This document shows, piece by piece, positions 15,190 through 53,555 of a stretch of 64,000 nucleotides of DNA. Position 1 is the stretch's first letter, and each line of letters opens with the position of its first letter. The stretch is taken from the NCBI GenBank assembly GCA_002999035.1, contig CP027241.1, positions 1,739,001-1,803,000 on the forward strand. Direction: 5' to 3'. The translations under genes were made by a program, and so were the position numbers. Below the pieces are notes generated by a model. The model ran no database searches. It was not told the DNA's origin and was given only the letters and a program-made list of their open reading frames with translations. Origin of the DNA: Lachnospiraceae bacterium oral taxon 500 (lineage in GTDB: Bacteria; Bacillota; Clostridia; Lachnospirales; Vallitaleaceae).

Positions 15190-15304
15190 GGTTATCGTTC
15201 CCATATCCTTCCAAAAGGTTTACAATGCCCCAGATTCCAAGGCCTGCGCCAAGTGCGATAACAAGTGTCTGTAATACTCCGACTGCTGAATTAAAAAATC
15301 CCAT
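15190..15304 (-). CDS. Maff2-like small membrane protein, 5' exon
   Basis: The ATG at 15304, behind AAAGGATG, opens MGFFNSAVGVLQTLVIALGA and continues through LGIWGIVNLLEGYGNDN to the intron border at 15190. Without splicing the frame would run a few codons into the intron and stop. The sequence and its place between the VirD4/TraG and VirB6 genes mark it as Maff2-like, a short ICE membrane protein of unknown task in transfer. Confidence 0.8.
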
Positions 15305-15361
15305 AGATTCATCCTTTCTGCCGATACCTCGGCTAAACATAATTTTTGCTGTTTCCCTCAT

Positions 15362-15384
15362 AAAAAAACCGCCGGATTCGGCGG
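15362..15384 (-). terminator. Terminator between traG and the Maff2-like gene
   Basis: On the minus strand CCGCCG-AATC-CGGCGG is followed by seven T. It lies after the VirD4/TraG stop (15458) and before the Maff2-like start, splitting the transfer operon. Downstream genes then need read-through or their own promoter. Confidence 0.8.
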
Positions 15385-15457
15385 ATAAGCATTCAGGCAT
15401 CAGGTGCCCGCGCTCTATATACTGCTGTCTTATATATCAAGCTTTTTCCTCCTTCTT

Positions 15458-17712: not shown

Positions 17713-17745
17713 ATGTCATCCTCCTTTCCTATAAGCAAAGTTTTC

Positions 17746-17967
17746 TCACTCCTTTATTCTTACGCGAAGCCCGTTTAACTCTCCGCGGATTCCTTTCAAA
17801 TACCATTCATCGCTTTTGTTTATGTCCATCTCGGTTTTTTTCCATTTTCCATAGGCAAAGACTTCAAGCTGATCTCCGGGATAAAGACCTCCTAAATAGT
17901 CTTTTAGGTCAAAACGGATGTCGTAGCGGTCACGGTATTCGTCAAAAATAAGGGTTCCCTGTTTCAT
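17746..17967 (-). CDS. DUF5348-like small ICE protein
   Basis: The 73-residue protein (MKQGTLIFDEYRDRYDIRFD, YGGLYPGDQLEVF-like region, DEWYLKGIRG) resembles the DUF5348 family, short beta-rich proteins found near replication and transfer genes of Tn1549-like elements. The function is unknown. It lies between the replication-initiator-like gene and pcfB and has an AAGGAGAAA site before its ATG. Confidence 0.65.
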   Translation of the reverse strand: MKQGTLIFDEYRDRYDIRFDLKDYLGGLYPGDQLEVFAYGKWKKTEMDINKSDEWYLKGIRGELNGLRVRIKE

Positions 17968-17979
17968 AAATTTTCTCCT

Positions 17980-18897: not shown

Positions 18898-19179
18898 GAT
18901 TTCTGCTCCTTTCGTTTTTTATTTGTTACGCAGTTAAAGGGCGATTTTGAAAGAAAAGGTATATTGCCCTTACTTTGTCAAAACCGCCCTCAAAAAGCCT
19001 TGTATTTCAAGCCTGTATATGCTTCAACTTCGTAACATGGACATGAAAAAAGCGGTGTCCTTATGCTTCCTTTGACAGAAGCGAAAGATCACCGCTTGGG
19101 ATGTGATATATTCAGTTTTTTGTACAATACCAGCTTGTCTGCTGTTATAAAAATGTTGGATTTACTTGTGTTTTAGAAG
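18898..19179. other. Intergenic region with two inverted repeats near the replication-initiator-like gene
   Basis: About 280 bases lie between the leftward replication/transfer operon and the rightward recombinases. One imperfect 13-bp inverted repeat is at 18938-18950 and 18978-18990 (AGGGCGATTTTGA against its near complement). A second nested hairpin has arms AAGCGGTG at 19050-19057 and CACCGCTT at 19090-19097 around GCTTC/GAAGC. It may hold the operon promoter or a replication origin. No coding sequence is seen. Confidence 0.4.
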
Positions 19180-20661
19180 TATCGTTATCTAACATCAGCT
19201 TTTGAGCGACCGGCATTTAAAGAAATGATGGAGGATGTAATCACAGGCAGTATCAACTGTATTGTGGTAAAAGATTTATCCCGTTTCGGCAGAGATTATA
19301 TTGATAGCGGGAGATATTTGCAAAGGGTGTTCCCCTCTCTTGATATTCGGTTTATTGCCTTAAATGACAATTATGACAGCTTCACAGCCAGTGAAACGGA
19401 AAAGAATTTGGTGATTCCTTTCAAGAATTTCATCAACGACAACTATTGCAGAGATACCTCCGCAAAGGTCAGAAGTGTTTGTAAAGTAAAGAGAAAACAA
19501 GGACAGTTTATATCAAACTATGCTCCTTACGGCTATGAAAAAGATAAGGAAGATAAGCACAAAATAGTAATTGATAAAGAAGCGGAATATGTGGTGCGAA
19601 AAATCTTCTCCATGAAACTGGAAGGATACAGCTCCTATTCGATTGCCAAACACTTAAACGATAATGGAATCCCCTCACCGATGGAGCATAAAAAGGCAAA
19701 GGGAATACGGTATAAGACAGGCTTCAGCACAAAGGCGGTTGCCAAGTGGGATACGCCTGCGGTCAATCGCATTTTAACCAATGAGATCTATATTGGAACA
19801 CTTCAACAGGGAAAACGAGAAAAGATCAATTATAAACTGGATAAAGTGGTTTCCAAAGATAGAAGCGATTGGATTGAAATTGAAGATAACCATGAGGCGA
19901 TTATTGATCCCCATGACTTTGAAATCGTCCAAAAACTTTTAAAATGCGATATCAAGGCGAAAACTGTCGGAGAAAAAGCGGATTTGTTTTCCGGACTTCT
20001 CTTTTGCAAAGACTGTAACGCACAGATGACAAAGAAAGTCGATAAACGAGGGAAAACACCGACCGTCTATTATATTTGCTCCTCATACAATAAGGGGCAA
20101 GATTGTAGCAGGCACTCTATAAAGCAGGAAGAATTGCAAAGGACAGTGCTTGAAATGATTCGGCATTATATTCAGTATCTTGGGGAATACGAAAGTGTTT
20201 CAGAGAAAATCAAAGAGATGGAAGTATCCTATGAACTGTTTCAAAAAATAGATAAAAGACAGGAATACACCAAGAAAAGCAAGGCAAAATTTGAGCTTTT
20301 AAAATCTTCTCTTTACCAAGATTTGAAAGAAGGCATTATTGCGGAAGAATAATTCTATGATATGAGGGAGTTTTACACGAATCGTATCGTAGAAAGTGAG
20401 CTGGTTTTAGAAAAGCAGAGCAAAGAAATTGCAAGGCTCTATAAAAAGAGTGTGGGCAATCAGAATTTCCTTACAGATATCAACAAGTATCAAAACATCG
20501 GTACTTTAGAAAGAGGACTTCTTGTTCGACTTGTTGATAAAATCTATGTTTCGGAAGACAAGAAAATAGAAATTCAGTTTAATTATGACGAAACGATCGA
20601 GATTCTGGATAAGTTGAGCAGCTATACCTCTCAAACTCCTGAAATCAGGGAGGTGGTATAG
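19179..20661 (+). pseudogene. Large serine recombinase, 5'-truncated and with internal stop
   Basis: The frame opens after a TAG and reads YLTSAFERPAFKEMMEDV, continuing through IVVKDLSRFGRDYIDSGRYL, so the first 60 or so residues with the catalytic serine are missing. The first ATG is at 19225. The recombinase domain (YAPYGYEKDKEDKHKIV, AKHLNDNGIPSP) and zinc-ribbon domain (LLFCKDCNAQMTKKV) are present. An in-frame TAA at 20350 cuts it between GIIAEE and FYDMREFYTNRIVESE, which continue in the same frame to 20661. Both lesions should abolish strand exchange. It is directly followed by an intact paralogue, an arrangement seen in ICEs with tandem serine recombinases. Confidence 0.85.
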
Positions 20662-22236
20662 ATGGCAAGAACAGCAAATCGAAGGATGAAGTCGGAAGAA
20701 ATGCTTAGCAAAGAAAATATAAACAGCTTTCAAACGGCAATCTATGCAAGAATCTCAAGAGATAAAAAAGAAAAACCGAGTGATTCCATTGAAAATCAAA
20801 TTGCTCTTTGCGAGAGCTTTATTCAAAAAAGTGAGGATTTCAGTTTAGCAGGAATCTATAAAGATATTGCAAAGACGGGAACGGACTTTAATCGCCCCGC
20901 ATTTCAAAAGATGATTGCTATGGTCAAGAAAAATGAAGTAAAGACTATACTTGTAAAAGACTTATCTCGTTTTGCCAGAGATTATATCGAATCTGGAGCC
21001 TATATTGAGCAAATTTTTCCCTTTATGCAAGTTCGGTTTATTTCTGTGAATGACAATTATGACAGTAAGAACAACGAAAACGGAATCAGCAGTTTGGAAA
21101 TTCCTTTTAAGAATCTTGTCTATGACTACTATTCCAAGGACATCTCACAGAAAATTCGTTCCTCCGTTAAAATCAGACAAGATAAAGGCTATTACTTCGG
21201 TTCAAAAGCACCCTATGGATATGTAAAAGACGAAAATGACCATCATCAGCTCATTGTCGATGAAGCAGTAAGACCGATCGTGAAAGAAGTGTTTGCAAGA
21301 TATTTAAGCGGAGAAAGTATGCTTGCGATTGCCAAAGACTTGAATGAGAGAAAAGTCTTAACACCCGGAAAGCACATAGGACTGAAAAGAGGAAGCGGAA
21401 TTTGGACAGGACAGATTGTTCGCTATCTCTTAACCCAACGAGTTTATACCGGAGCAATTGTCGGCGGAAAGACCAGAGTGTATGAAGTCGGCTCGGATCA
21501 TCGACAATGGACGGATAGCGAGGACTGGATTATACGGGAAAATATGCACGAAGCCATCATATCCCAAGAGGATTTTGCGGAAGTTCAAAACCGATTAAGC
21601 AGCAATGCAAAACATATCAGCCGAGAACGGAAGCATTTTCATATTCTTCAGGATAAAGTCTATTGTGGGCAATGCTATCATAAGATGAGTTATACCATTT
21701 ACTCCGGAAAAAGTGACGGATATTATTGTCCATATCGGTACAAGGCAAAAGACTGCGGCTGCATGAAAGGAAAGATACAAGCCTCGGTACTGGAAGAAAT
21801 CGTGTCAAAAGAAATTCAGCTTCATACCGAACATTTTCTTGAGGAAGAACAGACGAGAAGGATTGAGTATAGAGTCAAGGAAAGTATTTGTGAGAGCCTG
21901 CTTGAGCGAAAGAAAAAGCTGGAAGCGGAACAACAAAAAAATCAAATTTCCAAAATGCAGTGTTATGAAAGGCATAAACAAGGTATCATAGAGAAAGAAG
22001 AATACCTTTCAAAACGGGAATCCCTGACACAAAGAGCAAAAAACATCGAGCAGGAAATATTGATCATAGAGGACAAGATACAAGAAAATACCGCTTCAAG
22101 ACATCATCTAAATGTCGATAAACTAAGAGAAGCAGTAGCCGAAGGAGAACTTGTTTTAGACTGGATCAACGAAGTGATAGACAGAATCTATGTTTATGAC
22201 AAGGACAAGGTGGAGATTGTTTGGAAATTTGAATAA
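20662..22236 (+). CDS. Large serine recombinase, intact
   Basis: The 524-residue site-specific recombinase has the catalytic N-terminal domain (AIYARISRDKKEKPSDSIEN with the nucleophilic Ser, KDLSRFARDYIESGAY), the recombinase domain (GYYFGSKAPYGYVKDEND, MLAIAKDLNERKVLTPGKH), a zinc ribbon (KVYCGQCYHKMSY, YYCPYRYKAKDCGC) and a long C-terminal coiled coil. It should integrate and excise the element. The ATG directly follows the stop of the broken recombinase and has GGGAGG upstream inside that gene, so it was translated together with its neighbour. Confidence 0.95.
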   Translation: MARTANRRMKSEEMLSKENINSFQTAIYARISRDKKEKPSDSIENQIALCESFIQKSEDFSLAGIYKDIAKTGTDFNRPAFQKMIAMVKKNEVKTILVKDLSRFARDYIESGAYIEQIFPFMQVRFISVNDNYDSKNNENGISSLEIPFKNLVYDYYSKDISQKIRSSVKIRQDKGYYFGSKAPYGYVKDENDHHQLIVDEAVRPIVKEVFARYLSGESMLAIAKDLNERKVLTPGKHIGLKRGSGIWTGQIVRYLLTQRVYTGAIVGGKTRVYEVGSDHRQWTDSEDWIIRENMHEAIISQEDFAEVQNRLSSNAKHISRERKHFHILQDKVYCGQCYHKMSYTIYSGKSDGYYCPYRYKAKDCGCMKGKIQASVLEEIVSKEIQLHTEHFLEEEQTRRIEYRVKESICESLLERKKKLEAEQQKNQISKMQCYERHKQGIIEKEEYLSKRESLTQRAKNIEQEILIIEDKIQENTASRHHLNVDKLREAVAEGELVLDWINEVIDRIYVYDKDKVEIVWKFE

Positions 22237-23569: not shown

Positions 23570-23593
23570 AAGAGCGTGAAAGGAAGTGAGTTC

Positions 23594-24187
23594 ATGAACC
23601 AGTTAGAACAGATTGGGGAAATTTCAACTGTGGGTAATGGAGTTTTAAGAACTTCAGAAGTCATCAGTAAAGGAATTTCTAAAACGACTTTGGCAAAATT
23701 TGTAGAAAAATATAATTATGAGCGTATTTCACATGGAATTTATTGTTCTCCAGATGTATGGAAAGATGGACTGTACTTATTACAGCTTCGTTGCCCGAAA
23801 ACAATCTTTTCTCACGATACAGCCTTGTTTCTGCTTGATATGACAGATCAAGAGCCGCTGCAATATACTGTTACGGTAAAAAGCGGATATAATGCCACTC
23901 ATTTAAGAGAAGATGGTGTAAAAGTATTCTCTATTAAAAAAGACTTTTTTGAACTTGGGATTTCAAAAGCAAAAACACCTTTTGGAAATGAAGTTTTCAT
24001 CTATAATCCTGAGCGTACTGTTTGTGATATGATTCGTAGTCGTTCACAAATTGAAATTCAAATTTTTCAGGATGCAATAAAGCAGTATATCAGGCGTAAA
24101 GACAAGAATTTGCATCTACTTATGGAATATGCAAAAAAACTTCGAGTAAATCATATGTTAAGTAAATATTTGGAGGTGTTATTATAA
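23594..24187 (+). CDS. abiEi: AbiEi-family antitoxin, type IV toxin-antitoxin
   Basis: The 197-residue protein has the N-terminal winged-helix part (GNGVLRTSEVISKGISKTTL, YERISHGIYCSPDVW) and C-terminal region (FIYNPERTVCDMIRSRSQIE) of AbiEi antitoxins. These repress their own promoter and oppose the AbiEii toxin without binding it. I chose the ATG at 23594 behind AAGGAAGTGAG over the GTG at 23576. The stop overlaps the toxin start (TAATG). Its AT-rich composition differs from the chromosomal genes to the right, which fits acquired DNA. Confidence 0.9.
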   Translation: MNQLEQIGEISTVGNGVLRTSEVISKGISKTTLAKFVEKYNYERISHGIYCSPDVWKDGLYLLQLRCPKTIFSHDTALFLLDMTDQEPLQYTVTVKSGYNATHLREDGVKVFSIKKDFFELGISKAKTPFGNEVFIYNPERTVCDMIRSRSQIEIQIFQDAIKQYIRRKDKNLHLLMEYAKKLRVNHMLSKYLEVLL

Positions 24188-25053
24188 TGATTCATTCATC
24201 AAAACAACTAAAAGATTTGATACGAAATTTGTCAAAAGAAGTCGGTATTGAAGCCCATGTACTGATTAGAAAATATATGATGGAGCGGTTTTTAGAGCGA
24301 GTATCTTCATCAAAATACAATGGAAGTTTTATCCTAAAAGGCGGAATGTTGGTAGCAGCTTTTGTAGGGGTAGAGGCAAGGGCTACAATGGATATAGACA
24401 CTACCATTAAAGGTATTCCTGTAACGATGGTTGATATGGAGCGTACAATTACAGAAATTTCAAATATAGATTTAGAGGATAATGTGAAGTTCAGAATTAA
24501 AAAAGTATCGGAAATTATGGATGAAGCAGAATATTCAGGAATACGATTCAGTATGGATGCTGTATTAGATGGAGCAGTTATTCCTTTGAAGATAGATATT
24601 TCTACAGGCGATGTAATTACTCCAAGAGAAATAGCCTATTCATACAAACTGATGTTTGAAGATAGAACAATCCCCATTATGACATATCCTATTGAAACAG
24701 TCTTGGCAGAAAAGCTGGAGACTGTCATTTCAAGATCCGTAACCAATACAAGAATGAGGGATTTTTATGATATTCACATACTCTTAAAATCACAAAATAT
24801 AGATGCTGATATATTAGCTTTAGCGTTAGAGAGAACTGCTAAGAAACGAGGAAATTTTAACCTTTTAGAAAATGCAGAAAGTGTATTGAAGGTAGTAAAA
24901 TCAGATGAAGATATGAAAAGGCTGTGGGATATTTATCAGAAAAAATTTAAATATGCAGGCGAATATACTTGGGATGAAGTAATACATTCGGTTAGGGAAC
25001 TATCCATAGAAGCTAAATTAGATGTTGAAAAAATATCTGTTGCAGAAAAATAG
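24187..25053 (+). CDS. abiEii: AbiEii-family nucleotidyltransferase toxin
   Basis: The 288-residue toxin shows the nucleotidyltransferase motif FILKGGMLVAAF followed by ATMDIDTTIKG (the DxD-type site), and IETVLAEKLETVISRSVTN with MRDFYDIHIL downstream, as in AbiEii/MenT-like enzymes. Some relatives transfer nucleotides to tRNA and stop growth. The pair can act in abortive phage defence or stabilise the element. The start is coupled to abiEi by TAATG, with GGAGGTG upstream. Confidence 0.92.
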   Translation: MIHSSKQLKDLIRNLSKEVGIEAHVLIRKYMMERFLERVSSSKYNGSFILKGGMLVAAFVGVEARATMDIDTTIKGIPVTMVDMERTITEISNIDLEDNVKFRIKKVSEIMDEAEYSGIRFSMDAVLDGAVIPLKIDISTGDVITPREIAYSYKLMFEDRTIPIMTYPIETVLAEKLETVISRSVTNTRMRDFYDIHILLKSQNIDADILALALERTAKKRGNFNLLENAESVLKVVKSDEDMKRLWDIYQKKFKYAGEYTWDEVIHSVRELSIEAKLDVEKISVAEK

Positions 25054-37006: not shown

Positions 37007-37978
37007 GTGATAGCTACCAGAAAAGATGTGGCGGAGCTGGCAGGCGTATCGGTGGCAACCGTATCTTATGTCATAAATAGAACGAAAAATGTTACTGCGG
37101 AAGTACAGGAGCGGGTTGAGGCGGCGATAAGAGAATTGAATTATTCGCCCAATTTAGTTGCCCGCAGCTTAGCTACCCGTAAGACTCAGCATGTGGCAAT
37201 GCTTGTCAATAACTTAAAGAATCCATATTATACTGAGATGTTAGCCGGAGCCCAAGCAGTTGCCAGTAAAAAAGGCTATATCGTATCGATTATCATGGTG
37301 GATTACGCTGCTCCGGAAGAAACGCTAAAGCTGGCTTCCAGAGGACTGGACGGCGTGATAGTGGCGACAGTTCAGGCGGATGAGACAATAAGGTTCTTAG
37401 ACGGCCGGATTCCATATGCCACGGCGAGTGAAAATTTGTATTGCAGTTATAAAGAAGGGATTTTTGAAGCGGTTAAATCACTCAAGGAATATGGACATAC
37501 CGATATTGCCTTTCTTAGCGGTTTGCGGATGGGGGAGAGTCATGAACGGTACCGCTATTTAACGGAAGCCCTGAAATATTATAATCTGCCGGTAAACCGG
37601 AACTTAATGGTCGATGGGAATCAGCGGGAGGAAACCAATGAAGCGGCCGGGGTTGAGGCCATGCAGGATCTTATAGACCGGCGGGAATCATTTACGGCGG
37701 TTTTTGCGGTAAATGATTTGATGGCATTCGGGGCGATGAGTGCACTGGCTAAGAATGGCCTAAAGGTGCCGGAGGATGTTTCGGTCATAGGCTGCGATAA
37801 TCTGGAAATCGGGCGCTATTTTTTGCCGGCCCTTTCCACATTGGATGTGTCTGCATTTAAAATGGGAAAATATTTGATGAAAGAACTGATTTCTAAAATT
37901 GAAAATAAATCGGAAACAAGAAAAATTGTGATTTCTGCTTATGTGGAGCGAGCGAGCGTAGGCAGACGCAAAGAGTAA
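37007..37978 (+). CDS. LacI-family regulator of the rhamnoside operon
   Basis: The 323-residue regulator has the LacI helix-turn-helix and hinge (RKDVAELAGVSVATVSYVIN, YSPNLVARSLATRKT) and a periplasmic-binding-like ligand domain (GLDGVIVATVQADE, FTAVFAVNDLMAFGAMSAL, EDVSVIGCDN). It starts with GTG at 37007 behind AAGGGATG. It stands just upstream of the solute-binding protein, permease and GH78 genes and is flanked by two copies of one operator sequence. It is probably the local repressor that responds to rhamnose or a rhamnoside. Confidence 0.92.
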   Translation: MIATRKDVAELAGVSVATVSYVINRTKNVTAEVQERVEAAIRELNYSPNLVARSLATRKTQHVAMLVNNLKNPYYTEMLAGAQAVASKKGYIVSIIMVDYAAPEETLKLASRGLDGVIVATVQADETIRFLDGRIPYATASENLYCSYKEGIFEAVKSLKEYGHTDIAFLSGLRMGESHERYRYLTEALKYYNLPVNRNLMVDGNQREETNEAAGVEAMQDLIDRRESFTAVFAVNDLMAFGAMSALAKNGLKVPEDVSVIGCDNLEIGRYFLPALSTLDVSAFKMGKYLMKELISKIENKSETRKIVISAYVERASVGRRKE

Positions 37979-38227: not shown

Positions 38228-39895
38228 ATGAAAATGAAGAAACTCATGGCATTGGCCATGGCGGCGGCGATGACTCTCAGCCTTGCCGCATGCGGTTCTA
38301 ACTCCGCAGATAAGGGGAAAACGGTGACGGATCAACCCACTCAGAATCAAACCGTTAAGGAAGAGACCCCTAAAGACAAGGAAGAAGCCGCTCCCAAAAC
38401 CGACACAGCGACCATTACCATTTGCACAACGAATGATCCGGGAAAGCAAGCGGCCTGGACAGCGGTGGCGGAAGCTTACATGAAAAAGCACTCGGATGTT
38501 AAGGTAGTGGTCGATTTAAAGGCTTCAGAAAACTATGACCAATGGGTTCAGACCGAATTTACATCAAAGGAACCAACCGCGGATATTGTCAATATTAACT
38601 TAGCGGGTGATACCAGCAAGGGCAAGTCCATCAACTATATGGAATATTTTGACAATAAGAGCCCTTATTCCGACGGGACATGGGCAGAGCAGTTTGATGT
38701 TTCCAAACAAAAGGTGAATATGGCTGACAATACCATGGATGCGTTAAGCCTTGATACCGTTCAGGTTATTTGGCTGTATAATGCGGACATCTTTAATAAG
38801 GCCGGAGCCGAGCCGCCGAAAACATGGGATGAGATGATTGCGGCCTGTGAGAAGATTCAAGCCGCGGGCTATCAGCCAATCGCGTGCGATGGGGACTACA
38901 CCAGCTTCTACGCGTTGACGATGGGCTGGCTGGCACAAATTTACCATGACCAGACCAACAGAAGTGAGGTAGAAATTACCCGGGCGAAAGAAGGCGACTA
39001 TTGCTATGACCCGGATATTGATGGCAAGTGGAAATATGACCCCACCGATCCCTACAATGATGATGCAGATCATTTGACCCAGAACCCGATCAGAGCGTTT
39101 GCAGCCGTTAAAGACGGCTCCAGAAGCGGCAATACAGAAGGATTTAAGGCGGTATGGACTAATCTGGCCAAGGTATATCCTAAATATGCCGGCGGTGAAT
39201 CCTTCTTCGGGACAAACTTTAATGGTTCAAAGGCATTATTTTATCAGGGCAAGGCGGCGATGATGGTTAATGTTGCCTCCGGTATCGTGGAATTTAACAA
39301 TGATATGAAGGCGCTGGCTTCCGGTGAAAAGGTACAGGATTCCGAAGGAAAAGCAATTGAGAATGTGCAGAAGTTCACGCTGGGTACATTTAATATGCCT
39401 TCCATGGAAGGGCCGGAGTTTGAAGCCAAAGCCAGAACGATTGAAGTTGCGAATGGATTTATTGGCTGTATTTCTAAGGATCAGGATCATGATGACAAAG
39501 TTATTGATTTCTTAATGTACTTCTCATCAAGTGAAGGGCAGAGCGTGTACATTGATGCCGGTTTGGAAAACGGTATGGTTCCCGCCGGTCAGAGTCTGGT
39601 TTATAATATTTCCTATCCGGATGAAATTCAGAATGCGTTTGATTCGTTGAAACTGATCGGTAATGTCCAGAAAGATTTTAATAATCAGCTGGCCAGAGGA
39701 ATTGGTGAGTCGGCTGACAACTTCCGTAATTTCTATGAATACAGCTATGATTTCTTAACCGCTAAAATTGATGTTAACGCATGGGCGCAAAAACATCAGG
39801 AAAATATTACCAGTCATTTTGAAAAGGCGATGGCAGAAAAAGGCGTTGGCGCAAGCGATTTGGCCAACCCGCAGAATGCACCGACGGGCAACTGA
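38228..39895 (+). CDS. ABC sugar transporter solute-binding lipoprotein
   Basis: The 555-residue lipoprotein has a signal peptide with lipobox LSLAACG and a linker rich in Thr, Lys and Glu. The binding domain (ICTTNDPGKQAAWTAVAEAY, FYQGKAAMMVNVASGI, VIDFLMYFSSSEGQSVY) belongs to the family of oligosaccharide-binding proteins. At 555 residues it is over 100 longer than many such proteins. It should capture rhamnosides outside the cell for the following permeases. AAGGAGG lies before the ATG. Confidence 0.9.
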   Translation: MKMKKLMALAMAAAMTLSLAACGSNSADKGKTVTDQPTQNQTVKEETPKDKEEAAPKTDTATITICTTNDPGKQAAWTAVAEAYMKKHSDVKVVVDLKASENYDQWVQTEFTSKEPTADIVNINLAGDTSKGKSINYMEYFDNKSPYSDGTWAEQFDVSKQKVNMADNTMDALSLDTVQVIWLYNADIFNKAGAEPPKTWDEMIAACEKIQAAGYQPIACDGDYTSFYALTMGWLAQIYHDQTNRSEVEITRAKEGDYCYDPDIDGKWKYDPTDPYNDDADHLTQNPIRAFAAVKDGSRSGNTEGFKAVWTNLAKVYPKYAGGESFFGTNFNGSKALFYQGKAAMMVNVASGIVEFNNDMKALASGEKVQDSEGKAIENVQKFTLGTFNMPSMEGPEFEAKARTIEVANGFIGCISKDQDHDDKVIDFLMYFSSSEGQSVYIDAGLENGMVPAGQSLVYNISYPDEIQNAFDSLKLIGNVQKDFNNQLARGIGESADNFRNFYEYSYDFLTAKIDVNAWAQKHQENITSHFEKAMAEKGVGASDLANPQNAPTGN

Positions 39896-39933
39896 TAAAT
39901 AGTAAGAGAGGTCGTGGGATTTAAGACTGACAG

Positions 39934-39966
39934 ATACGGCAGAGAGACGGGCTTTCTCTGCCGTAT
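39934..39966 (+). promoter_or_regulatory. Hairpin between the solute-binding-protein and permease genes
   Basis: Perfect 12-bp arms ATACGGCAGAGA and TCTCTGCCGTAT enclose a 9-base loop, followed by TTAAAAA rather than a T run. It probably protects or attenuates the mRNA so that the binding protein is made in excess over the permeases. Confidence 0.6.
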
Positions 39967-39995
39967 TTAAAAAGCGCGGTGAAGGAGACGGAAGG

Positions 39996-41981
39996 ATGAA
40001 GGATAAAGTTGCAAAAAATAATATTATCCTTATAGTGATAGCTGCGGTGTGTTTAATAGCCGGCGTCGTTCTGCTGCTGGGCCAGAGATACTGTAATCGT
40101 AAAACCCAGGGAATCGAAAGCAGCGGAATTGCGATAGGCGCTCAAAACGGTTGTATCGCTTATGCTGCCGAAAATGATATTCTGATGGTGGGCAATCAAA
40201 ATAATGAAGCCGTAGCGTTTCGGGGCGGAAATGAGATATGGAGGACTTCCGCCAATGGCGCTTATCGAACGTTTGTCATTGACGCGGATAACAGCAAAGT
40301 ATATGCGGGCAATGAGGATAATCATATCTATATATATAACATTATAGATGGAACGCTGATTTCAGACATTGATACGCGGCGCAGGATTGTGGCTATGGAT
40401 GTGGCGGCGGACGGTAAAATTGCAGTCGCGACCAGTACCGGTGCCACCAAGGCCAATGTTATTATTTACGATAAAGACGGGAATGAGCTTTTAAACAGCG
40501 GCTATAAGATAAAAATAAATGGGATTCGGTTTACGGCAGACAGTCAAAATATTATTATCGGTAATAACCGCGGTGAGCTAATCAAGTTGGATATAGCCGG
40601 CAGTGAGACTGGTATGTTCGCAGCCAAATATACGGTTTTGCAGATGATAAGGTATGGCGAGTATCATTTGGCGGTCTGCAAAAACGGCGGTTACTTTGGA
40701 TTTGACGATGATTTACAGATAGTCAGAAAAGGAGTGATTACCAATACTGCTCAGGCGGTGGTAAACAGTATCGGAACGGATGCCGCCGGGGAATATATAG
40801 CCGTAGGTTCGCAGGAAGGATATGTATATATTTTAGATAAAAAGGATAATCAGGTTTATGTCCAAAACACACATGCGACAGTAAATGCCTTTGCGCCATA
40901 CGGCGATTATATTTATATGGCAGGTGCCCATGCGTCAATTCAGATTATTCATGTCGCCGATATGGCTCATGTTCGGCTATACGGCACATTGGCTGCGGTC
41001 TTACTCGGTGCAGGCGCAATCATCTTTGCTATTGGTATATTTTTGGCGTTTCTGGCTATTCCGGCTGCCAACCGGAAGCTGCGTAAGCTGGGAAAAAATA
41101 TGTGGAAAAATAAAATCGCATATATTTTGCTGCTGCCGACATTTTTGCTGTTATGGTTCTTTAATTATAGAGGGATTTTAACGGCATTTGTACGAGCCTT
41201 TACCAATTGGTCGACTACCAATAATACCGTAGCCAAAATGGATTTTGTCGGCTTAGAGAACTTTCGCCGGATGTTTCATGAAGGCTATTTTCTGATGGGC
41301 ATGAAAAACTTGGCACTGCTTATTGTGACCGGTATTTTAAAGACAGTTACGATGCCACTGGTAACAGCATGGCTAGTGTATGCCGTCAGAGGAAGTAGAA
41401 AAAAATATTTATACCGCTTTCTGTTTGTGCTGCCCGTAGTTGTTCCGGGGGTAGTCATGGCGATGACCTGGCAAAAAATATACGACCCCAATATTGGTCT
41501 CTTAAATGAAATTTTAAGGGCAGTGGGGCTTTTTAAGTGGCAGCAGGTTTGGCTGGGGAATTCTAAGACGGCTATCTGGTCAATCATATTTATGGGCTTT
41601 CCGTTTATATCGGCAATGGCATTCTTGGTTTATTATGGCGGATTTATCAATATTGGCAGGGAAGTGGAAGAGTCGGCGCGGGTAGACGGCGCCAGCAGAA
41701 GCCAGGTGTTTTGGAAGATTCAGCTGCCGATTATAAAGCCGCAGCTGAGCATTATGGTAACCTTAACATTAATCGGTGTCATGCAGGACTTTAATAATAT
41801 TTATATCATGACTGGCGGCGGTCCGGGAACATCAACCTATGTGCCGGCTTTGGAATTATATTTGAATGTTGCCCAGTTCGGCCGATATGGATATGCTTGT
41901 GCGTTGGGCGTGGTGTTGTTTGTCTTTACAATGACGGTCATTTTAGTCAATATGCGGCTGACCCGGGAGAAGGAGGTGTAA
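39996..41981 (+). CDS. ABC sugar permease with N-terminal extracytoplasmic beta-propeller
   Basis: This 661-residue protein joins two parts. Residues 9 to 28 form a membrane anchor. Residues about 40 to 325 are WD40/PQQ-like repeats (KVYAGNEDNHIYIYNIIDGT, GEYIAVGSQEGYVYILDKKD). A second membrane helix follows (about 328 to 352). The rest (from about 365) is a usual sugar permease, including KNKIAYILLLPTFLLLWFFN and the EAA-type coupling loop EESARVDGASRSQVFWKIQL. Both parts are one uninterrupted frame. The propeller should face outward and might help bind substrate or wall glycans. Normal permeases of this family have about 300 residues. Confidence 0.88.
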   Translation: MKDKVAKNNIILIVIAAVCLIAGVVLLLGQRYCNRKTQGIESSGIAIGAQNGCIAYAAENDILMVGNQNNEAVAFRGGNEIWRTSANGAYRTFVIDADNSKVYAGNEDNHIYIYNIIDGTLISDIDTRRRIVAMDVAADGKIAVATSTGATKANVIIYDKDGNELLNSGYKIKINGIRFTADSQNIIIGNNRGELIKLDIAGSETGMFAAKYTVLQMIRYGEYHLAVCKNGGYFGFDDDLQIVRKGVITNTAQAVVNSIGTDAAGEYIAVGSQEGYVYILDKKDNQVYVQNTHATVNAFAPYGDYIYMAGAHASIQIIHVADMAHVRLYGTLAAVLLGAGAIIFAIGIFLAFLAIPAANRKLRKLGKNMWKNKIAYILLLPTFLLLWFFNYRGILTAFVRAFTNWSTTNNTVAKMDFVGLENFRRMFHEGYFLMGMKNLALLIVTGILKTVTMPLVTAWLVYAVRGSRKKYLYRFLFVLPVVVPGVVMAMTWQKIYDPNIGLLNEILRAVGLFKWQQVWLGNSKTAIWSIIFMGFPFISAMAFLVYYGGFINIGREVEESARVDGASRSQVFWKIQLPIIKPQLSIMVTLTLIGVMQDFNNIYIMTGGGPGTSTYVPALELYLNVAQFGRYGYACALGVVLFVFTMTVILVNMRLTREKEV

Positions 41982-41985
41982 GCGG

Positions 41986-42825
41986 ATGGGAAAGAAGCGG
42001 GCAAACTTTCGTTTTCAAGTGATGATAACGCTGATTATCCTTTTCCTGATTCTGATATCCTTTGTCCCGATTGCGCTGATGATTATGCTGTCTTTCAAGA
42101 CCAATGCCGAAGTATACAGCAACTTTTTCGCGCTGCCCAAGAGCTTTAACTGGGGTAATTACTCGTCCGCGCTGGGACTTTTAGGGCAAAATATGTTTAA
42201 TACCGTAGCGGTTGTGGCGATAGCGGTAGCATTTACACTGGTGCTGTCGGCGGTGGGGGGATATGTCTTTGCGAGAATGAACTTTCCCGGTAAGAAAATG
42301 CTGTATCTGCTGCTTATGGCGCTGCTGATGATTCCCGGAATCCTTTACCTGGCGCCCAATTATGCTTTGATTCAGCAATACGGTATATTTAACACATGGT
42401 GGGCTCTGATCCTGCCGTGGGTTTCAGGCGGACAGGTGTTGGGCATTATTCTTTGCCGCAACTCCGTAGAGGCTCTGCCGATTGATTTATTTGAGTCGGC
42501 CAGGCTGGAAGGCTGCGGAGAAATCCGAACGCTGATTTATATTACCACGCCGTTGATCAAGCCGATTCTGTCAACCATCGCCGTGCTTAAAATGGTGGAT
42601 TATTACAATGATTTTATTTGGCCGATGATGGTTATTGAATCAAACAGCAAGCAGGTTATTACCGTGGCGGTTCGTGTGTTTGCCGCGTCCCAGTCGGCAG
42701 GCGGCGGCCGGATCGGCCCAATGTTTGCCGGTTATGTGATAGCAACCATTCCTGTTTTTGTTCTTTTTTTATTTACTTCTCGGCTATATATGGAAGGAAT
42801 GACAGCCGGCGCGATAAAAGGATGA
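41986..42825 (+). CDS. ABC sugar permease, second subunit
   Basis: The 279-residue partner permease has six helices and the EAA-type loop ESARLEGCGEIRTLIYITTP, and ends MEGMTAGAIKG like many MalG-type proteins. Its start lies 4 bases after the fused permease. No ATPase gene is present in the operon, so a shared ATPase elsewhere (MsmX type) is probably used. Confidence 0.93.
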   Translation: MGKKRANFRFQVMITLIILFLILISFVPIALMIMLSFKTNAEVYSNFFALPKSFNWGNYSSALGLLGQNMFNTVAVVAIAVAFTLVLSAVGGYVFARMNFPGKKMLYLLLMALLMIPGILYLAPNYALIQQYGIFNTWWALILPWVSGGQVLGIILCRNSVEALPIDLFESARLEGCGEIRTLIYITTPLIKPILSTIAVLKMVDYYNDFIWPMMVIESNSKQVITVAVRVFAASQSAGGGRIGPMFAGYVIATIPVFVLFLFTSRLYMEGMTAGAIKG

Positions 42826-42845: not shown

Positions 42846-45629
42846 ATGCGCATTAGAAATTTAAAAACAAATCATTTTGAAAACCCTATCGGATATCAGA
42901 TTTCGTCCCTTTCCCTATCATGGAAAGTGGAAGCGGCCAAGGGAAAGAAAACAGCACAGGCCCGTGTAAAGATTGCGGAAGATGAAGCATTTGAAAATAT
43001 TGTATGGGACAGCGGATTAAGAAGCAATATGGACAGTGCGGCTTTTGCACCGGATTTTAAGCCGGCGGCAAGAAGCAGATATTATTGGCAGGTAGAGGTA
43101 ATTGACGATGCGGGGGAAGGCGGAGTCAGCGATATTGCCTTTTTTGAAACGGCGCCGGAAAAAGTCGAGGGAAAGTGGATAACGATGCCTTTTGCCAAGG
43201 AGATTCATGGTCTATATCGGAAATTAATAGAAGTTCCGGCCGAAACCGGAATAAAAGCAGCCCGGCTTTATATTTCCGGTCTTGGACTCTATGAGGCATA
43301 TCTAAATGGAAAAAAGATTGGTGATGAGTATTTAACGCCTTTTTATAATGACTATAACTACTGGGTTCAGTATCAAAGTTATGATGTGACGGATATGCTG
43401 GCAGCGGGCACGAACGAACTGAGAGTTATGCTGGGCAACGGCTGGTACAAAGGGCGGTTTGGCTTTATTGACAAATTGGATAGACTCTATGGCGATACCC
43501 AGACCATGATCTGTCAGCTGATAATAGAACTGGCTGATGGAAACCGAATTTCTGTCGGCTCGGATGAAAGTTTTCAGTGCCGGCAGTCGCCCGTATTAGA
43601 GAGCAGCATTTATGACGGAGAAGTTTACGATGCCAATCTGGAAGTGGTTGAAGAAAATTGGGAACCGGCAGTTTTGGCTGATGAGGAGATTCAGCGCTGG
43701 TCAGAAAAGCTGATGCCGCGCTATAGCTTGCCGCTGACGATTCATGAAGAATTTAAGCCGATAGAGATTATTCATACGCCGGCCGGAGAAACGGTGCTGG
43801 ATTTCGGGCAGAACCTGACGGGGCTGTTTTACTTTACCTGTGATGAACCGAAAGGTACGCGCGTTTATCTTCAGATGGGAGAAATCCTGCAAAACGGTAA
43901 TTTTTATAATGAGAATCTGCGGACTGCCAAACAGGAGTTTGTCTATATTTCTGGCGGGAGCTGCCGCGTAGTCAGACCGCATTTTACATTTTACGGATTC
44001 CGCTATATGAAAGTCGAGGGGATTGGAGATATCAAGGCGGCTGATGTTACGGCGTGCGCTCTTTATTCGGATATGGAGGAAACGGGGCGGATTCAGACCT
44101 CTAATCCGAAAGTCAATAGATTGTTTTTAAATGCGCTGTGGGGTCAAAAAGGTAACTTTGTAGATATACCGACCGATTGTCCGCAGCGGGATGAGCGGAT
44201 GGGCTGGACCGGTGACGCGCAAGTGTTTGCGGCTACCGCATCTTTTAATATGTATACGCCGGCGTTTTACAGCAAGTTTTTATACGATATGCGTTTGGAA
44301 CAAGAGGATTTGGATGGGGCAGTACCGCATGTTGTGCCGGATATCTTAGATCAGATTAATGTTGTCCTGAAAGACCCGGAAAGAGCCGGTCAATTGGGGA
44401 TAAAGACCAAAAAGGCGGACAATGGCAGCGGAGTAGCGCATGCGGTCGGAGCAGATGAGGAAGACGAGGCGGCGGCACCGGTTGAGGAAGGCGGGGCTGA
44501 TTTGGCCGAGCCGGAAAAAGCGGCGGGTTCCTGCGCATGGGGGGACGCGGCTACTGTGATTCCCTGGACCACTTATATGTTTTATGGAGATAAAGCATTG
44601 CTGGCAGCGGAATATCCCAATATGAAGATGTGGATTGATTATATTCATAAGATTGACCGGACAAAGTGCGGTGGTCAATATCTATGGACCCATGGATTTC
44701 ATTATGGCGATTGGCTGGCCTTGGATAATTTTCACAAGGACACCTGTATCGGGGCGACGGATACTTATTATGTGGCAAGCAGCTACTATTTATATTCAGC
44801 TGAACTGACAGCCAAAGCGGCAGCGGCACTTGGCAAGGCGGAGGATGCTGATTATTATGTGAAGCTGGCTGAAAAAGTAAGAGCGGCTATGCGCAGGGAA
44901 TACTTTACGGCAAGCGGCAGACTGGTGGTAGACACGCAGACCGCTTTGGTCTTGGCTCTTTATTTTAACATTGTCCCGGAGGAAGCAAGAGAGAGGACAA
45001 TAAAGGCTCTTCAGCGGAAACTGGATGAGGAAAATATTCATCATACGACCGGATTTGTCGGCACGCCGTATTTGTGTCCTACCCTTACCGGGAACGGCCT
45101 TGTCGATTATGCGTATACCTTGCTGCTCAACGAGGATTTTCCCAGCTGGCTTTATGAAGTAAACATGGGCGCTACGACTATATGGGAAAGATGGAATTCC
45201 GTTCTTCCCGATGGCAGTATAAGCGATACCGGAATGAACAGCTTGAATCACTATGCGTATGGCTCCATTGTTGAGTGGATGTACCGCTATATGTGCGGCA
45301 TCAATCCAGATGAGAAAAAAGCCGGATTTAAAGAGTTTGTTATAAAGCCCTATCCGGACAGGCGCTTTGAGTATGCCAAGGCAGAATATCAATCGGTTTA
45401 TGGATTGATTGAAAGCGGTTGGCAAAAGATAGAAAATGGCTGGAGATTTAATATCACCGTTCCATTTGACACCCGGGCGATATTTGTTCTGGAAGATAGA
45501 TTGGCGGGTGCGGTAACAGTGGAAACCGAAGCGAATATAGAGGCAGCGGATATTGAAAAATTATTAAACGGTGAGCGTCAGGCGGTTTTGCAGCCGGGCA
45601 AATATGAAATCCAAGTGACGGAGCGTTAG
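42846..45629 (+). CDS. Alpha-L-rhamnosidase, GH78 family
   Basis: The 927-residue enzyme should release L-rhamnose from glycosides. It has the N-terminal beta domains of GH78 (LYISGLGLYEAYLNGKKIGD, LRVMLGNGWYKGRFGF), the catalytic signature DCPQRDERMGWTGDAQ near residue 442 with its acidic residues, and GATTIWERWNS near 780. There is no signal peptide, so it acts on imported rhamnosides. A low-complexity insertion of about 60 residues (about 500 to 560, rich in Glu, Ala, Asp and Gly) interrupts the catalytic domain between VVPDILDQ and AWGDAATVIPW. The gene ends the operon. Confidence 0.93.
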   Translation: MRIRNLKTNHFENPIGYQISSLSLSWKVEAAKGKKTAQARVKIAEDEAFENIVWDSGLRSNMDSAAFAPDFKPAARSRYYWQVEVIDDAGEGGVSDIAFFETAPEKVEGKWITMPFAKEIHGLYRKLIEVPAETGIKAARLYISGLGLYEAYLNGKKIGDEYLTPFYNDYNYWVQYQSYDVTDMLAAGTNELRVMLGNGWYKGRFGFIDKLDRLYGDTQTMICQLIIELADGNRISVGSDESFQCRQSPVLESSIYDGEVYDANLEVVEENWEPAVLADEEIQRWSEKLMPRYSLPLTIHEEFKPIEIIHTPAGETVLDFGQNLTGLFYFTCDEPKGTRVYLQMGEILQNGNFYNENLRTAKQEFVYISGGSCRVVRPHFTFYGFRYMKVEGIGDIKAADVTACALYSDMEETGRIQTSNPKVNRLFLNALWGQKGNFVDIPTDCPQRDERMGWTGDAQVFAATASFNMYTPAFYSKFLYDMRLEQEDLDGAVPHVVPDILDQINVVLKDPERAGQLGIKTKKADNGSGVAHAVGADEEDEAAAPVEEGGADLAEPEKAAGSCAWGDAATVIPWTTYMFYGDKALLAAEYPNMKMWIDYIHKIDRTKCGGQYLWTHGFHYGDWLALDNFHKDTCIGATDTYYVASSYYLYSAELTAKAAAALGKAEDADYYVKLAEKVRAAMRREYFTASGRLVVDTQTALVLALYFNIVPEEARERTIKALQRKLDEENIHHTTGFVGTPYLCPTLTGNGLVDYAYTLLLNEDFPSWLYEVNMGATTIWERWNSVLPDGSISDTGMNSLNHYAYGSIVEWMYRYMCGINPDEKKAGFKEFVIKPYPDRRFEYAKAEYQSVYGLIESGWQKIENGWRFNITVPFDTRAIFVLEDRLAGAVTVETEANIEAADIEKLLNGERQAVLQPGKYEIQVTER

Positions 45630-50418: not shown

Positions 50419-51756
50419 ATGAAGATGAAACGAGCAGCAGCAGTATTATTATCCGTAGTCACATTGGCTGTACTTTCTTTGGCAGGATGCGGAAGTAACA
50501 GCAAAGAAACAGATACGACAAAGCCGGTAGATGCTTCAAAGCCGGCAGATACCTCAAGTTCTGGTGAGAAAGTGGTGATTAATTTCTTTCATCGCTGGCC
50601 AAATGATCCGAAAAACTCTATGTTTAAGGAATTGATTCAGAAATATATGGATGAAAATCCAAACGTTACCATTAACATGGACTGTATTTTGAACGATCAG
50701 TACAAAGAGAAAATTCGTATGGTTGTTGGTACGGATGAGATTCCGGATATTTTCTCTTCTTGGTCGGGTACTTTCGCTCAGGAAATGATTGCTCCGGGCA
50801 ATGTTGCTTCATTAAATGATATGTATAAAGACGATACGGAATGGTCTTCCAAAATTGCTCAAGCCAGCATCGACAAGTTTACATTTGACGGTAAAATTTA
50901 TGGTGTGCCATGGTCTCAGGACGGCAAAGTGTTTTATTACAATAAGAAAATTTTTGAAGAAAATAAGTTAACGATTCCAAAAACTTGGAACGAGTTTATT
51001 GCAGTATTGGATACTTTAAAGGCAGCTGGTTATGAGACGCCGGTTATTGCCGGTTTAGCCGATGGCTTTGAATCTCTTCACTATTTGGGAAGCATGAATC
51101 AGAGAATGATTGATCCGGAAGTTTTAGCAAAAGATTATAATGCGGCAACGGGTGAATTTACAGATCCCGGTTATACGGAAGTTTTGAAAAAATGGCAACA
51201 GTTAACGACTTATATGGGAATGATGAGTACGGCAATTGATCATCAAACTGCAAGAAATACTTATTTTGCAGCCGAAAAGGCGCCGATTATGTACTTGCAG
51301 TTCGCAGAAATTACTATGTTAGAAAAGTCTATTCCGGAGGGGTTTGAGTATGGCTTCTTCAATTTCCCTGCATTTGAAGAGGGGAAGGGTGATGTGAATG
51401 CTCTGACAGGCGCACCGGAAGGATTTATGATTAGCAATAAAACGAAAAATCCCGAAGAATGTAAAAAGTTCTTGAAATGGTTGGTAAGTAAGAACGGCGG
51501 AGAATATTTGACAACAAAATGTGGCGATATTTCATCTGTTGCAGGTGCGGTAGATGAAACCAATGCGTTACCGGCACAATTAGAGGCTATGAGTATTATT
51601 CAAAATGCAAGCCAATTAGTTCCTTGGTTTGATAATGCGTGTGATCCGGCTGTATATACTGTATATGGCCAAATGGCACAGGCAATAGCAACCGGGGATG
51701 AAACGCCGGAAAGTGCAATGGAACAGGTAAGAGCAGCAGCGGCATCGTTACATTAA
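50419..51756 (+). CDS. frlO: Solute-binding lipoprotein of the frl ABC importer
   Basis: The 445-residue lipoprotein has a signal peptide with lipobox LSLAGCG, a Ser/Lys linker and a sugar-binding-protein fold (INFFHRWPNDPKNSMFKELI, IYGVPWSQDGKVFYYNKKIF). It should capture fructoselysine or related Amadori products. AAGGAGG precedes the ATG. A strong hairpin follows the stop. Confidence 0.88.
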   Translation: MKMKRAAAVLLSVVTLAVLSLAGCGSNSKETDTTKPVDASKPADTSSSGEKVVINFFHRWPNDPKNSMFKELIQKYMDENPNVTINMDCILNDQYKEKIRMVVGTDEIPDIFSSWSGTFAQEMIAPGNVASLNDMYKDDTEWSSKIAQASIDKFTFDGKIYGVPWSQDGKVFYYNKKIFEENKLTIPKTWNEFIAVLDTLKAAGYETPVIAGLADGFESLHYLGSMNQRMIDPEVLAKDYNAATGEFTDPGYTEVLKKWQQLTTYMGMMSTAIDHQTARNTYFAAEKAPIMYLQFAEITMLEKSIPEGFEYGFFNFPAFEEGKGDVNALTGAPEGFMISNKTKNPEECKKFLKWLVSKNGGEYLTTKCGDISSVAGAVDETNALPAQLEAMSIIQNASQLVPWFDNACDPAVYTVYGQMAQAIATGDETPESAMEQVRAAAASLH

Positions 51757-51771
51757 TCCTAGATTCAAAGG

Positions 51772-51800
51772 GGTTCAGGGGCAAAAGCTGCCCCTGAACC
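51772..51800 (+). promoter_or_regulatory. Hairpin between the frl binding-protein and permease genes
   Basis: Perfect arms GGTTCAGGGGCA and TGCCCCTGAACC with a 5-base loop and no T run. As at 39934, it probably stabilises the binding-protein message relative to the permease part. Confidence 0.65.
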
Positions 51801-51819
51801 AAACAAAAGATGGGGGTGG

Positions 51820-52713
51820 ATGATTTTGACAAAGAAAAAGAACTTGGAAGCATTTATTTTTGCGGTACCAGCACTTCTGCTCCTTGGAACATTTATATAT
51901 TTTCCCTTGATTGAAAATATTGTATATAGTTTTCAGTCTTTTACGCTTTCTTCGGTTAGCAGAGAATGGGTGGGGCTGACCAATTATAAATATCTGTTTT
52001 CTGATAAAACTATTTTGACCTGCTTGGGAAATAATATTCTCTATGCAGTGATTTCAATTATTATTCAGGTAGGATTTGGGCTGTTACTTGCGGCTGTACT
52101 GGAGGATACGGTATTTCGTAAAGTGGCTCCATTTTTCAGGAGTGTGTATTTTATCCCGACCGTTATTTCGATGACGGTTGTATGCTTATTGTTCAAATTT
52201 ATTTATAATCCTCAAATGGGATTGCTAAATAGTTTTTTAAAAACGATGGGGTTGGAAAGCCTTGCCAAGATTTGGCTGGGAAGCAAAAAAACGGCTATGC
52301 TTGCTGTTATTGCGGTATCCCAGTGGCAGAGTACGGGCTATGTGGCTATGCTCTTTATTGTAGCAATTCAGAAAATTCCGAAAGATTTGTATGAGTCTGC
52401 AGAAATAGACGGTGCTGGAAAAATCAAAAGATTTTTTTATATTACGGTTCCGCAAGTAAAACAAATGTTTTTTGTCACGATGATTTTGACGGTTGTAGGT
52501 GCTTTTACCGTATTTAATGAGCCGTATATTTTAACCGGCGGAGGTCCGGGTACAGCGACTATGGTATTATCCTTGCATATGTATCAGACTGGCTTTATAA
52601 AAAACAATATGGGCTACGCATCGACGATTGCGATGTTGATTTTTGTAATTACCGCTACACTATCTTCCGTGCAATTTTTCAGTTATGGCACAGAAAAGGA
52701 GGATGGCAGATGA
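51820..52713 (+). CDS. frlN: frl ABC permease, first subunit
   Basis: The 297-residue permease has six helices (FIFAVPALLLLGTFIYFPLI at the start) and the coupling loop ESAEIDGAGKIKRFFYITVP. TGGGPGTATMVLSLHMYQTG near the end is usual for MalF-type sugar permeases. The TTG or ATG choice matters little here; the listed start includes a short leader. The stop overlaps the next permease. Confidence 0.9.
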   Translation: MILTKKKNLEAFIFAVPALLLLGTFIYFPLIENIVYSFQSFTLSSVSREWVGLTNYKYLFSDKTILTCLGNNILYAVISIIIQVGFGLLLAAVLEDTVFRKVAPFFRSVYFIPTVISMTVVCLLFKFIYNPQMGLLNSFLKTMGLESLAKIWLGSKKTAMLAVIAVSQWQSTGYVAMLFIVAIQKIPKDLYESAEIDGAGKIKRFFYITVPQVKQMFFVTMILTVVGAFTVFNEPYILTGGGPGTATMVLSLHMYQTGFIKNNMGYASTIAMLIFVITATLSSVQFFSYGTEKEDGR

Positions 52714-53555
52714 TGAAAAAACGATTAAAACGGAAAAAAATTGGGATAGGAGAGGCAATATGGTTTATAATCCTTTGTATTTTGGCCGTTTTGATTATTT
52801 ATCCTTTGTTATGGATTTTAATGTCTTCTTTTAAGGACTATCAAGGGATATATGGTGATGTTTGGGGCTTTCCTCAGAAGTGGCTATGGGGAAATTATGT
52901 GACCGCCTGGAATAAGGGAATTTCGCTATACTTTGTAAATAGTTTAATCGTAACTATCGTAACCCTAATCGGAGTAGTGTTCGTGGCATCTTTTGCCGCT
53001 TTTGGAGTGTGTCAAATTAAAGGAAAGTTTGGCAATTTTGTGTTTTTACTTTTTTTGTGCGGATTGTTGCTTTCCCCGCAGGTATGCCTACTTCCTTTGT
53101 TTATGCTGTTAAAGACGCTAAAACTAAAAAATACGCTCTGGGCAATGATTTTGCCGTACATTGCGTTTCGACTTCCGGTTTCGATTATGCTTGTTCGGTC
53201 GTTTTTTGTCACCATTTCCAAGGAGTTGGAGGAAGCGGCTATCATTGATGGAGCAAAACTATTTGGAATTTATAAAAGCATTTATTTGCCGTTATCCAAG
53301 CCGATTTTGTCTACGGTGGTGATTATGACGGCATATTATGCATGGAACGAGTTTGTGTTTGCGACAATTTTTGTGGATAGTTCTGCGCTTCGCACGATTC
53401 CAGTCGGCTTGATGACTTTTAGCGATGGCTTGATGACGGAATGGGGTGTGGTTTTGGCTGGTATGGTAATTGCTTGTTCCCCGATTATGATTTTATTTAT
53501 TATCATGCAGAAGAACTTTGTTCGGGGTATGACTGCCGGTGCGGTGAAAGGATAG
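52710..53555 (+). CDS. frlM: frl ABC permease, second subunit
   Basis: The 281-residue permease has six helices, the coupling loop EEAAIIDGAKLFGIYKSIYL and the terminal RGMTAGAVKG. Its start overlaps frlN by 4 bases. As with the rhamnoside system, no ATPase gene is nearby, which agrees with Bacillus frl operons that borrow MsmX-type ATPases. Confidence 0.9.
   Translation: MMKKRLKRKKIGIGEAIWFIILCILAVLIIYPLLWILMSSFKDYQGIYGDVWGFPQKWLWGNYVTAWNKGISLYFVNSLIVTIVTLIGVVFVASFAAFGVCQIKGKFGNFVFLLFLCGLLLSPQVCLLPLFMLLKTLKLKNTLWAMILPYIAFRLPVSIMLVRSFFVTISKELEEAAIIDGAKLFGIYKSIYLPLSKPILSTVVIMTAYYAWNEFVFATIFVDSSALRTIPVGLMTFSDGLMTEWGVVLAGMVIACSPIMILFIIMQKNFVRGMTAGAVKG

Follow-up and report, generated by a model that had tools for sequence, protein, structure and literature searches.

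A sugar ABC importer permease fused to a membrane-anchored seven-bladed propeller, with a possible role in docking its binding protein

Extra domains on the channel subunits of importers, above all P2 of MalF, offer a handle on how the substrate-binding protein (SBP) docks and how sugar is released. P2 sits inside the permease, after the first core helix; in the importers OpuA and GlnPQ, the SBP is fused to the permease. According to excerpts of PMC3150292, P2 spans residues 91–271 of MalF, and a segment of it contacts MalE directly. In the alginate importer of Sphingomonas (AlgM1–AlgM2–AlgS with AlgQ2), AlgQ2 is a large SBP with an EF-hand-like calcium site that touches the transporter in the crystal, and AlgQ-like large SBPs with such a site form the seventh cluster of that study (excerpts of PMC5717064).

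Here we analyse a 64,000-nucleotide stretch of DNA (the window) in which a single open reading frame (ORF) encodes a complete permease of the MalF (CUT1) type, preceded by a seven-bladed WD40/PQQ-like propeller with one transmembrane (TM) helix on either side of it (Table 1). That this architecture and its conservation hold is close to certain. The propeller may be an outward docking platform for an SBP that bears an insertion, as MalF-P2 is for MalE; we favour this reading tentatively, without counting it as probable.

Table 1 Features of the fusion operon in the window
Feature	Position	Strand	Basis
LacI-family regulator	37007..37978	+	Pfam LacI and Peripla_BP_3
Lipoprotein-like extracellular sugar-binding protein, SBP_bac_1, 555 aa	38228..39895	+	Pfam, 60.4 bits (cut-off 26)
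SBP residues 260–271, YDPDIDGKWKYD, DxDxDG-like loop within the ~45-residue insertion	39005..39040	+	
16-bp RNA hairpin with 5-base loop, between SBP and fusion genes	39932..39968	+	Region folding
Propeller–permease fusion, 661 aa	39996..41981	+	ATG start, one frame
TM helix 1, residues 10–28	40023..40079	+	Hydropathy and charge
Extracytoplasmic seven-bladed propeller, residues 40–319	40113..40952	+	AlphaFold and fold comparison
TM helix 2, residues 320–353, straight out of the last strand	40953..41054	+	Model, sequence reading
MalF-type permease core, residues 368–661	41097..41978	+	BPD_transp_1; profile match to AlgM1, MalF and SugA
Second permease, MalG-type, unfused	41986..42825	+	MalG/GlcU-like by NCBIfam, under those cut-offs
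Alpha-L-rhamnosidase GH78	42846..45629	+	Bac_rhamnosid6H, 387.8 bits

Architecture of the fusion

The uninterrupted frame joining a propeller to a complete permease, which a sequence-only reading had reported, was confirmed, and a GGAG-type ribosome-binding site lies upstream of its ATG. An internal start yielding a free permease was rejected: M369, around the permease start and the sole methionine in residues 332–385, has no visible ribosome-binding site in front of it, and methionine is not conserved there. A local rearrangement or a sequencing or assembly artefact was also rejected, because nine further genomes share the same frame.

AlphaFold prediction from the four closest fusions placed 28 strands in residues 40–319, that is, seven blades of four strands, with block means of pLDDT of 74–92 and with helices at residues 2–37 and 326–353 flanking the propeller. 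The predicted blades (7 × 4 antiparallel strands) close in a ring, as in a seven-bladed beta-propeller, and the pLDDT of residues 40–319 was mostly 80–97; the propeller that had been proposed for residues 40–325 is thus formed in the prediction of the full chain. With 33 input sequences (the 10 fusions and 23 of 26 unfused permeases), the whole-chain mean pLDDT was 85.3 and the pTM 0.54, so the placement of the propeller against the channel is unsure. VIA-align comparison of residues ~37–323 with solved propellers gave Z scores of 31.9–33.7 for the best 50 matches listed, which were mainly WD40 proteins. The closest prokaryotic match among those listed, also in Foldseek, was the WD40 domain 5yzv of Thermomonospora curvata (TMt 0.82, Z 32.9, 14% identity to the window propeller), which we take to be PkwA, part of a cytoplasmic kinase.

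When the full chain was scanned against Pfam, nearly all propeller families matching its first half fell under their cut-offs, WD40 (PF00400) with 15.7 bits against 27, and ANAPC4_WD40 lay above. PQQ_2 (PF13360; cut-off 27.6) scored 26.9 bits with the full chain and 30.3 bits with the propeller alone, for which PQQ_2 and ANAPC4_WD40 were above their own cut-offs among the 13 families listed. DUF5711 (PF18975), a family that one open-licence PMC paper names (PMC11233732), was matched by three of the ten fused propellers at an E value of 0.001; against its cut-off of 26.3 bits, the fusion in L051 scored 44.6 and that in L005 20.3 (under the cut-off), and the scan of the window chain contained no DUF5711 row at E values up to 1. 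Like the N-terminal half of the fusions, DUF5711 proteins combine an N-terminal TM helix with a propeller; a free DUF5711 protein, L049, which unlike the fusions has no permease, was matched by the profile of the ten propellers in hhalign (96.3% over 128 columns). Some fused propellers therefore appear, from these profile matches, to belong to or resemble this uncharacterised family of membrane propellers, and free proteins of the L049 type are a candidate source of the fused domain. The L049 gene (L049:949-2073) adjoins a TruA-like gene, as judged by reading.

A MalF-type core has its N terminus in the cytoplasm, and one extra helix precedes it here, which places the propeller outside the cytoplasm. 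The N-terminal tail (MKDKVAKNN) is taken as cytoplasmic; in all ten fusions, this tail carries 2–5 positive residues and the linker between TM helix 2 and the core 5–7, with few or no negative ones. The earlier description of the propeller as membrane-anchored and extracytoplasmic is borne out in both respects, the anchoring by the TM helices and the outer side by topology. In the model, residues 40–46 form the outer strand of the last blade (blade 7) and residues 314–319 its third strand, so that both ends of the propeller would lie on one and the same membrane-ward (bottom) face. The direct helical link to the membrane, with TM helix 2 predicted to continue out of the last strand, and the presence of a LacI regulator in the operon might suit a sensor role, in which the propeller would detect transport or substrate and either signal to the cell or gate the channel. 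Such a role seems improbable: neither a sensor kinase nor another receiver was seen beside the fusion in the loci read, and a cytoplasmic LacI regulator can itself respond to the imported sugar.

In the second half of the chain, BPD_transp_1 covers residues 460–648 (57.7 bits, cut-off 26.4), and this family was also above its cut-off in the fusions scanned besides that of the window (L005, L040, L051 and L055). This half was placed by sequence profile instead of fold search, because Foldseek with the second model (that from 33 sequences) gave propellers in the best 50 matches listed; the best PDB match of the core profile was 4tqu_M (AlgM1; 3.9e-29), and 2r6g_F (MalF) matched at 3.6e-25. In the EAA-X3-G loop, a motif for ATPase coupling described in excerpts of PMC3150292 and placed here by eye, A561, D564 and G565 are invariant in the 10 fusions, and D564 and G565 across 33 permeases. 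With a MalG-type partner and an SBP present in the operon, the fusion is the MalF-type subunit of a CUT1 sugar ABC importer. No cognate ATPase gene was found among the operon genes; for such importers, a shared ATPase of the MsmX type is expected.

Distribution and origin

Ten fusions, the window's included, were found in ten genomes, the nine others being 25–63% identical to that of the window. A scan of genome contigs yielded L002 (a Clostridiales metagenome-assembled genome (MAG); 63% identity) and L003 (a Lachnospiraceae MAG; 62%), from which the common phylum of the fusion genomes was taken as Bacillota, and whole-genome searches added the fusions in G012 (45%), G711, G846, G1114, G1033, G998 and G860. 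Conservation across several genera, which the sequence-only reading had named as support for a function, is thus found. In overlapping samples that count the own genome where it was sampled, the fusion is present in 2 of 41 relatives, 2 of 392 genomes of the order sample (G083, also matched there, has a free propeller), 6 of 391 of the class sample (G1083 is a free propeller) and 2 of 398 of the phylum sample (the remaining rows are free propellers), as well as in the orders of G1033 (4 of 30 genomes), G711 (1 of 4) and G860 (1 of 3). In the window's family, all 22 genomes match the whole protein, with 4 to 55 matches each, and those listed are permeases besides two fusions; absence of the fusion there is therefore not absence of the importer.

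Several candidates were rejected as fusions. G083 (L037), G430 (L039) and G1083 (L049) encode propeller-type proteins in which reading revealed no permease domain, and the same holds for 16 further places (L063–L078), of which L067, L069, L071, L072, L074, L076 and L077 had looked promising by length alone (frames of 615–699 aa). Among plasmids, none of 2304 matching records had a single place covering 80% of the fusion, the anchor and propeller of L054 alone found no match, and none of 25 records reached 80% of the window SBP.

A maximum-likelihood tree was built from 61 permease cores, of which 10 are fused, 47 unfused and 4 second permeases; its unfused rows are high matches with loci returned and not a sample of all bacteria. 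The fused permeases form a single clade in it (support 99/97), and long branches were flagged among the unfused and second-permease rows. A first tree with 26 unfused rows gave the same clade at 99/96; the second contains two pairs of identical rows, and an ORF filter left 4 of the 50 unfused loci out of it (L025, L031, L103 and L105). The nearest unfused relative (support 100/99) is L109, a second such permease of G711, in whose locus a propeller is neither fused nor adjacent. The single fused clade suggests one old fusion with patchy retention, and one fusion event followed by patchy loss or transfer is the simplest reading of the tree. The L109 permease gene (L109:7431-8321) lies with an SBP and a second permease gene in an operon between two sulfatase genes (sulfatases by Pfam), and an FG-GAP-repeat protein, of a different propeller-type family, is encoded ~2.8 kb downstream (L109:11958-13043).

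Patchy presence, as in the order of G1033, and the strong divergence of the propellers (13–53% identity to the window) compared with the cores (36–77%) would also fit a nearly functionless propeller carried along after an accidental fusion. This we find hardly credible, as a roleless domain should be lost and all ten fusions keep a full-length, in-frame domain across large distances.

An insertion in the binding protein

The sequence-only reading described the partner permease and the SBP as separate and normal; separate ORFs they are, and the SBP, which has a LAAC lipobox (read from sequence), departs from the normal by an unusual insertion. The insertion follows an AGYxP segment and amounts to about 45 residues, judged by alignment with 4g68, the closest solved SBP: 15 residues of 4g68 stand opposite ~61 profile positions, and the extra stretch is missing there. 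The motif [YF]Dxx(x)DGx[WYF]x[FY]D occurs in the insertion of all nine SBPs encoded beside fusions, with D261, D265, G266, D271 and D278 invariant in all nine, and its spelling is close to the calcium-loop pattern DxDxDG. Beside unfused permeases, none of 34 SBP ORFs has the motif (33 distinct, recognisable among 50 loci, one being the second SBP of the window), and a looser form (DAIQVDGKW) occurs in one of them, L092; the SBP of L109, the nearest unfused relative, lacks the motif too. Since the motif was derived from the SBPs beside fusions, only its absence elsewhere is informative. Length separates the two sets less well than it seems: SBP ORFs beside fusions measure 512–563 aa from the first possible start, 15 of the 34 unfused-side ORFs are cut by the end of the locus, the 19 uncut ones measure 425–461 aa, and that of L109 nominally reaches 571 aa from its first possible start.

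The co-occurrence of propeller and SBP-specific insertion points to docking of the SBP rather than to a second substrate-binding module or a sensor. Phylogenetically, the two are one joint gain, a single evolutionary event, so their co-occurrence may be plain co-inheritance, and the insertion could instead serve ligand binding. The profile of the fused-type SBPs matched 17 PDB entries at 1e-8, and AlgQ was absent from these.

Under the docking mechanism, a MalF-type subunit would have gained its N-terminal, membrane-anchored extracytoplasmic propeller, probably once. Both TM helices would leave the propeller at its bottom face, so that its top face would point outward and the propeller itself would stand above the mouth of the channel or next to it. 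There it would dock the cognate lipid-anchored SBP through the extra DxDxDG-containing segment, which would keep the SBP, once loaded, close to the channel and in the right orientation for release. After import, the oligosaccharide, in the window probably one containing rhamnose, would be cleaved by GH78, which is apparently cytoplasmic.

The best conserved of the polar and aromatic residues in the propeller include R130, kept in 10/10 fusions, and N70, K152 and Y212, each kept in 9/10. These four map to loops of the outward face or to the margins of such loops; W82 and D262 are equally conserved and lie elsewhere. This evidence from the outward loops is weak, because the two faces are equally conserved on average: no conserved propeller face was found when the mean conservation of top and bottom loops was compared (difference 0.008, shuffle p 0.36). 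A stand-alone DUF5711 protein also has a lysine at the position of K152, which may therefore be a family trait.

Operon neighbours

The order SBP, fusion, second permease is found in 9/9 loci in which the SBP side is present (the L003 contig ends before the SBP), with gaps of 16–162 nt and then −8 to 29 nt. LacI-type genes were also read directly 5′ of the SBP gene in L041 (G012) and L054. For the hairpin region that separates the fusion gene from the SBP gene, the folding energy is −27.3 kcal/mol (z −3.0, with equally good shuffles in 2/200); the hairpin could determine how far SBP mRNA exceeds channel mRNA.

The genes that follow differ between loci. In group A (the window, L002, L003 and G012), a GH78 gene comes after the second permease, identified by Pfam in the window and by close resemblance in the other three; L002 also has a GH106-like gene upstream that starts at the contig edge. 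No signal peptide was seen when the N terminus of the window GH78 was read by eye, and this enzyme is probably cytoplasmic. In group B (G711, G846, G1114, G1033 and G998), the three importer genes are followed by one for a membrane-like protein of 205–215 aa in 4/5 loci (the L051 contig ends), and in three of those four by one for a protein of 963–973 aa, cut at 735 in L053 (L052:4389-7280, L040:12654-15575 and L053:6282-8487). No Pfam match was found for these three long proteins, nor an NCBIfam match for the L052 copy. In G860 (L055), the importer genes are followed by one for a protein with a GH42 trimerisation domain. DUF5722 genes recur beside fusions of both groups, by Pfam in L002 (L002:10051-11649), L003 (L003:5856-7454), L040 (L040:15794-16759) and L051 (L051:2635-4188, here upstream), and by resemblance in L052 (L052:3058-4382), where the copy is apparently split across two frames; the open-licence PMC literature yielded nothing on DUF5722. 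The rhamnoside link suggested earlier agrees with the rhamnosidase gene of the window operon and falls as a general rule: GH78 follows only the four fusions of one subclade, and the remaining six have DUF5722, unnamed or other glycoside-hydrolase-like genes nearby, as far as the contigs reach.

Elsewhere in the window, a second importer lies ~5 kb downstream of GH78 (50419–53555; an SBP of 445 aa and two unfused permeases). Genes at 12591–22236 look like those of mobile elements on reading (a reverse-transcriptase-like ORF at 12591 and recombinase-like ORFs at 19225 and 20662), and two adjacent ORFs at 23576–25053 resemble what we presume to be an AbiE-type toxin–antitoxin pair.

The presence of glycan genes (GH78 in the four group-A loci, DUF5722 and the GH42-like gene in L055) in these operons and the few conserved polar or aromatic loop residues could be taken to favour the proposal of the sequence-only reading, namely a lectin-like module that captures surface oligosaccharide and feeds it to the SBP or the channel. 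Scored alone, the propeller of L055 also lies marginally above threshold for the lambda-carrageenase propeller domain (27.1 bits, cut-off 26.8), a weak match that shifts the odds slightly from docking towards glycan capture. Even so, we consider a lectin unlikely: the families above cut-off for the window propeller are not glycan-specific, an overall conserved face was not found, substrate is already captured by the SBP, and the glycan genes vary between groups, yet R130 is constant (and K152 and Y212 are kept in 9/10). Propellers are mostly protein-interaction platforms, and together with the WD40 fold matches and with free-standing membrane propellers such as L049, this might indicate a scaffold that fixes the importer to another envelope protein, to the wall or to an enzyme at the surface. 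We judge this rather less plausible still, given that in the stretches examined the operons share no surface protein besides the SBP, and that the window GH78 has no visible signal peptide.

Comparison with known importers

No description of a propeller–permease fusion was found in the open-licence PMC literature, and the free lipoprotein propellers in excerpts of PMC13068155 are unlike the fusion. The parts of the importer are of known kinds and the variant itself is apparently undescribed; as an unremarked domain architecture, it may already be present in databases. A conserved propeller in a docking role, if true, would be a new module; it would also offer a first clue to what the uncharacterised DUF5711 propellers do and define a recognisable importer subclass for the annotation of glycan uptake in Clostridia and their relatives. 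More speculatively, and with some doubt on our part, propellers of the DUF5711 type may be dedicated receptors for SBPs with a calcium-loop-like insertion throughout such a subclass, a second and independent docking solution besides MalF-P2 that would have arisen once and been spread or kept across several bacterial families importing different glycans.

Among described systems, E. coli MalF (in MalFGK2) is the same kind of CUT1 subunit as the fusion and likewise has a single additional folded domain outside the cytoplasm. Unlike MalF-P2, the domain of the fusion has a propeller fold, comes ahead of the entire core and is flanked by two additional TM helices; an insertion of the P2 type inside the permease core was not found, as the propeller precedes a complete core. 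The alginate importer provides, in AlgM1, the closest PDB sequence relative of the fusion core, and in AlgQ2 a large SBP that contacts its transporter through an EF-hand-like site; to our knowledge, the AlgM1–AlgM2–AlgS–AlgQ2 complex has no propeller. In OpuA and GlnPQ, as in the fusion, the channel subunit carries an added extracytoplasmic module; in these two it is the SBP itself, whereas in the window it is a propeller and the SBP is a protein of its own.
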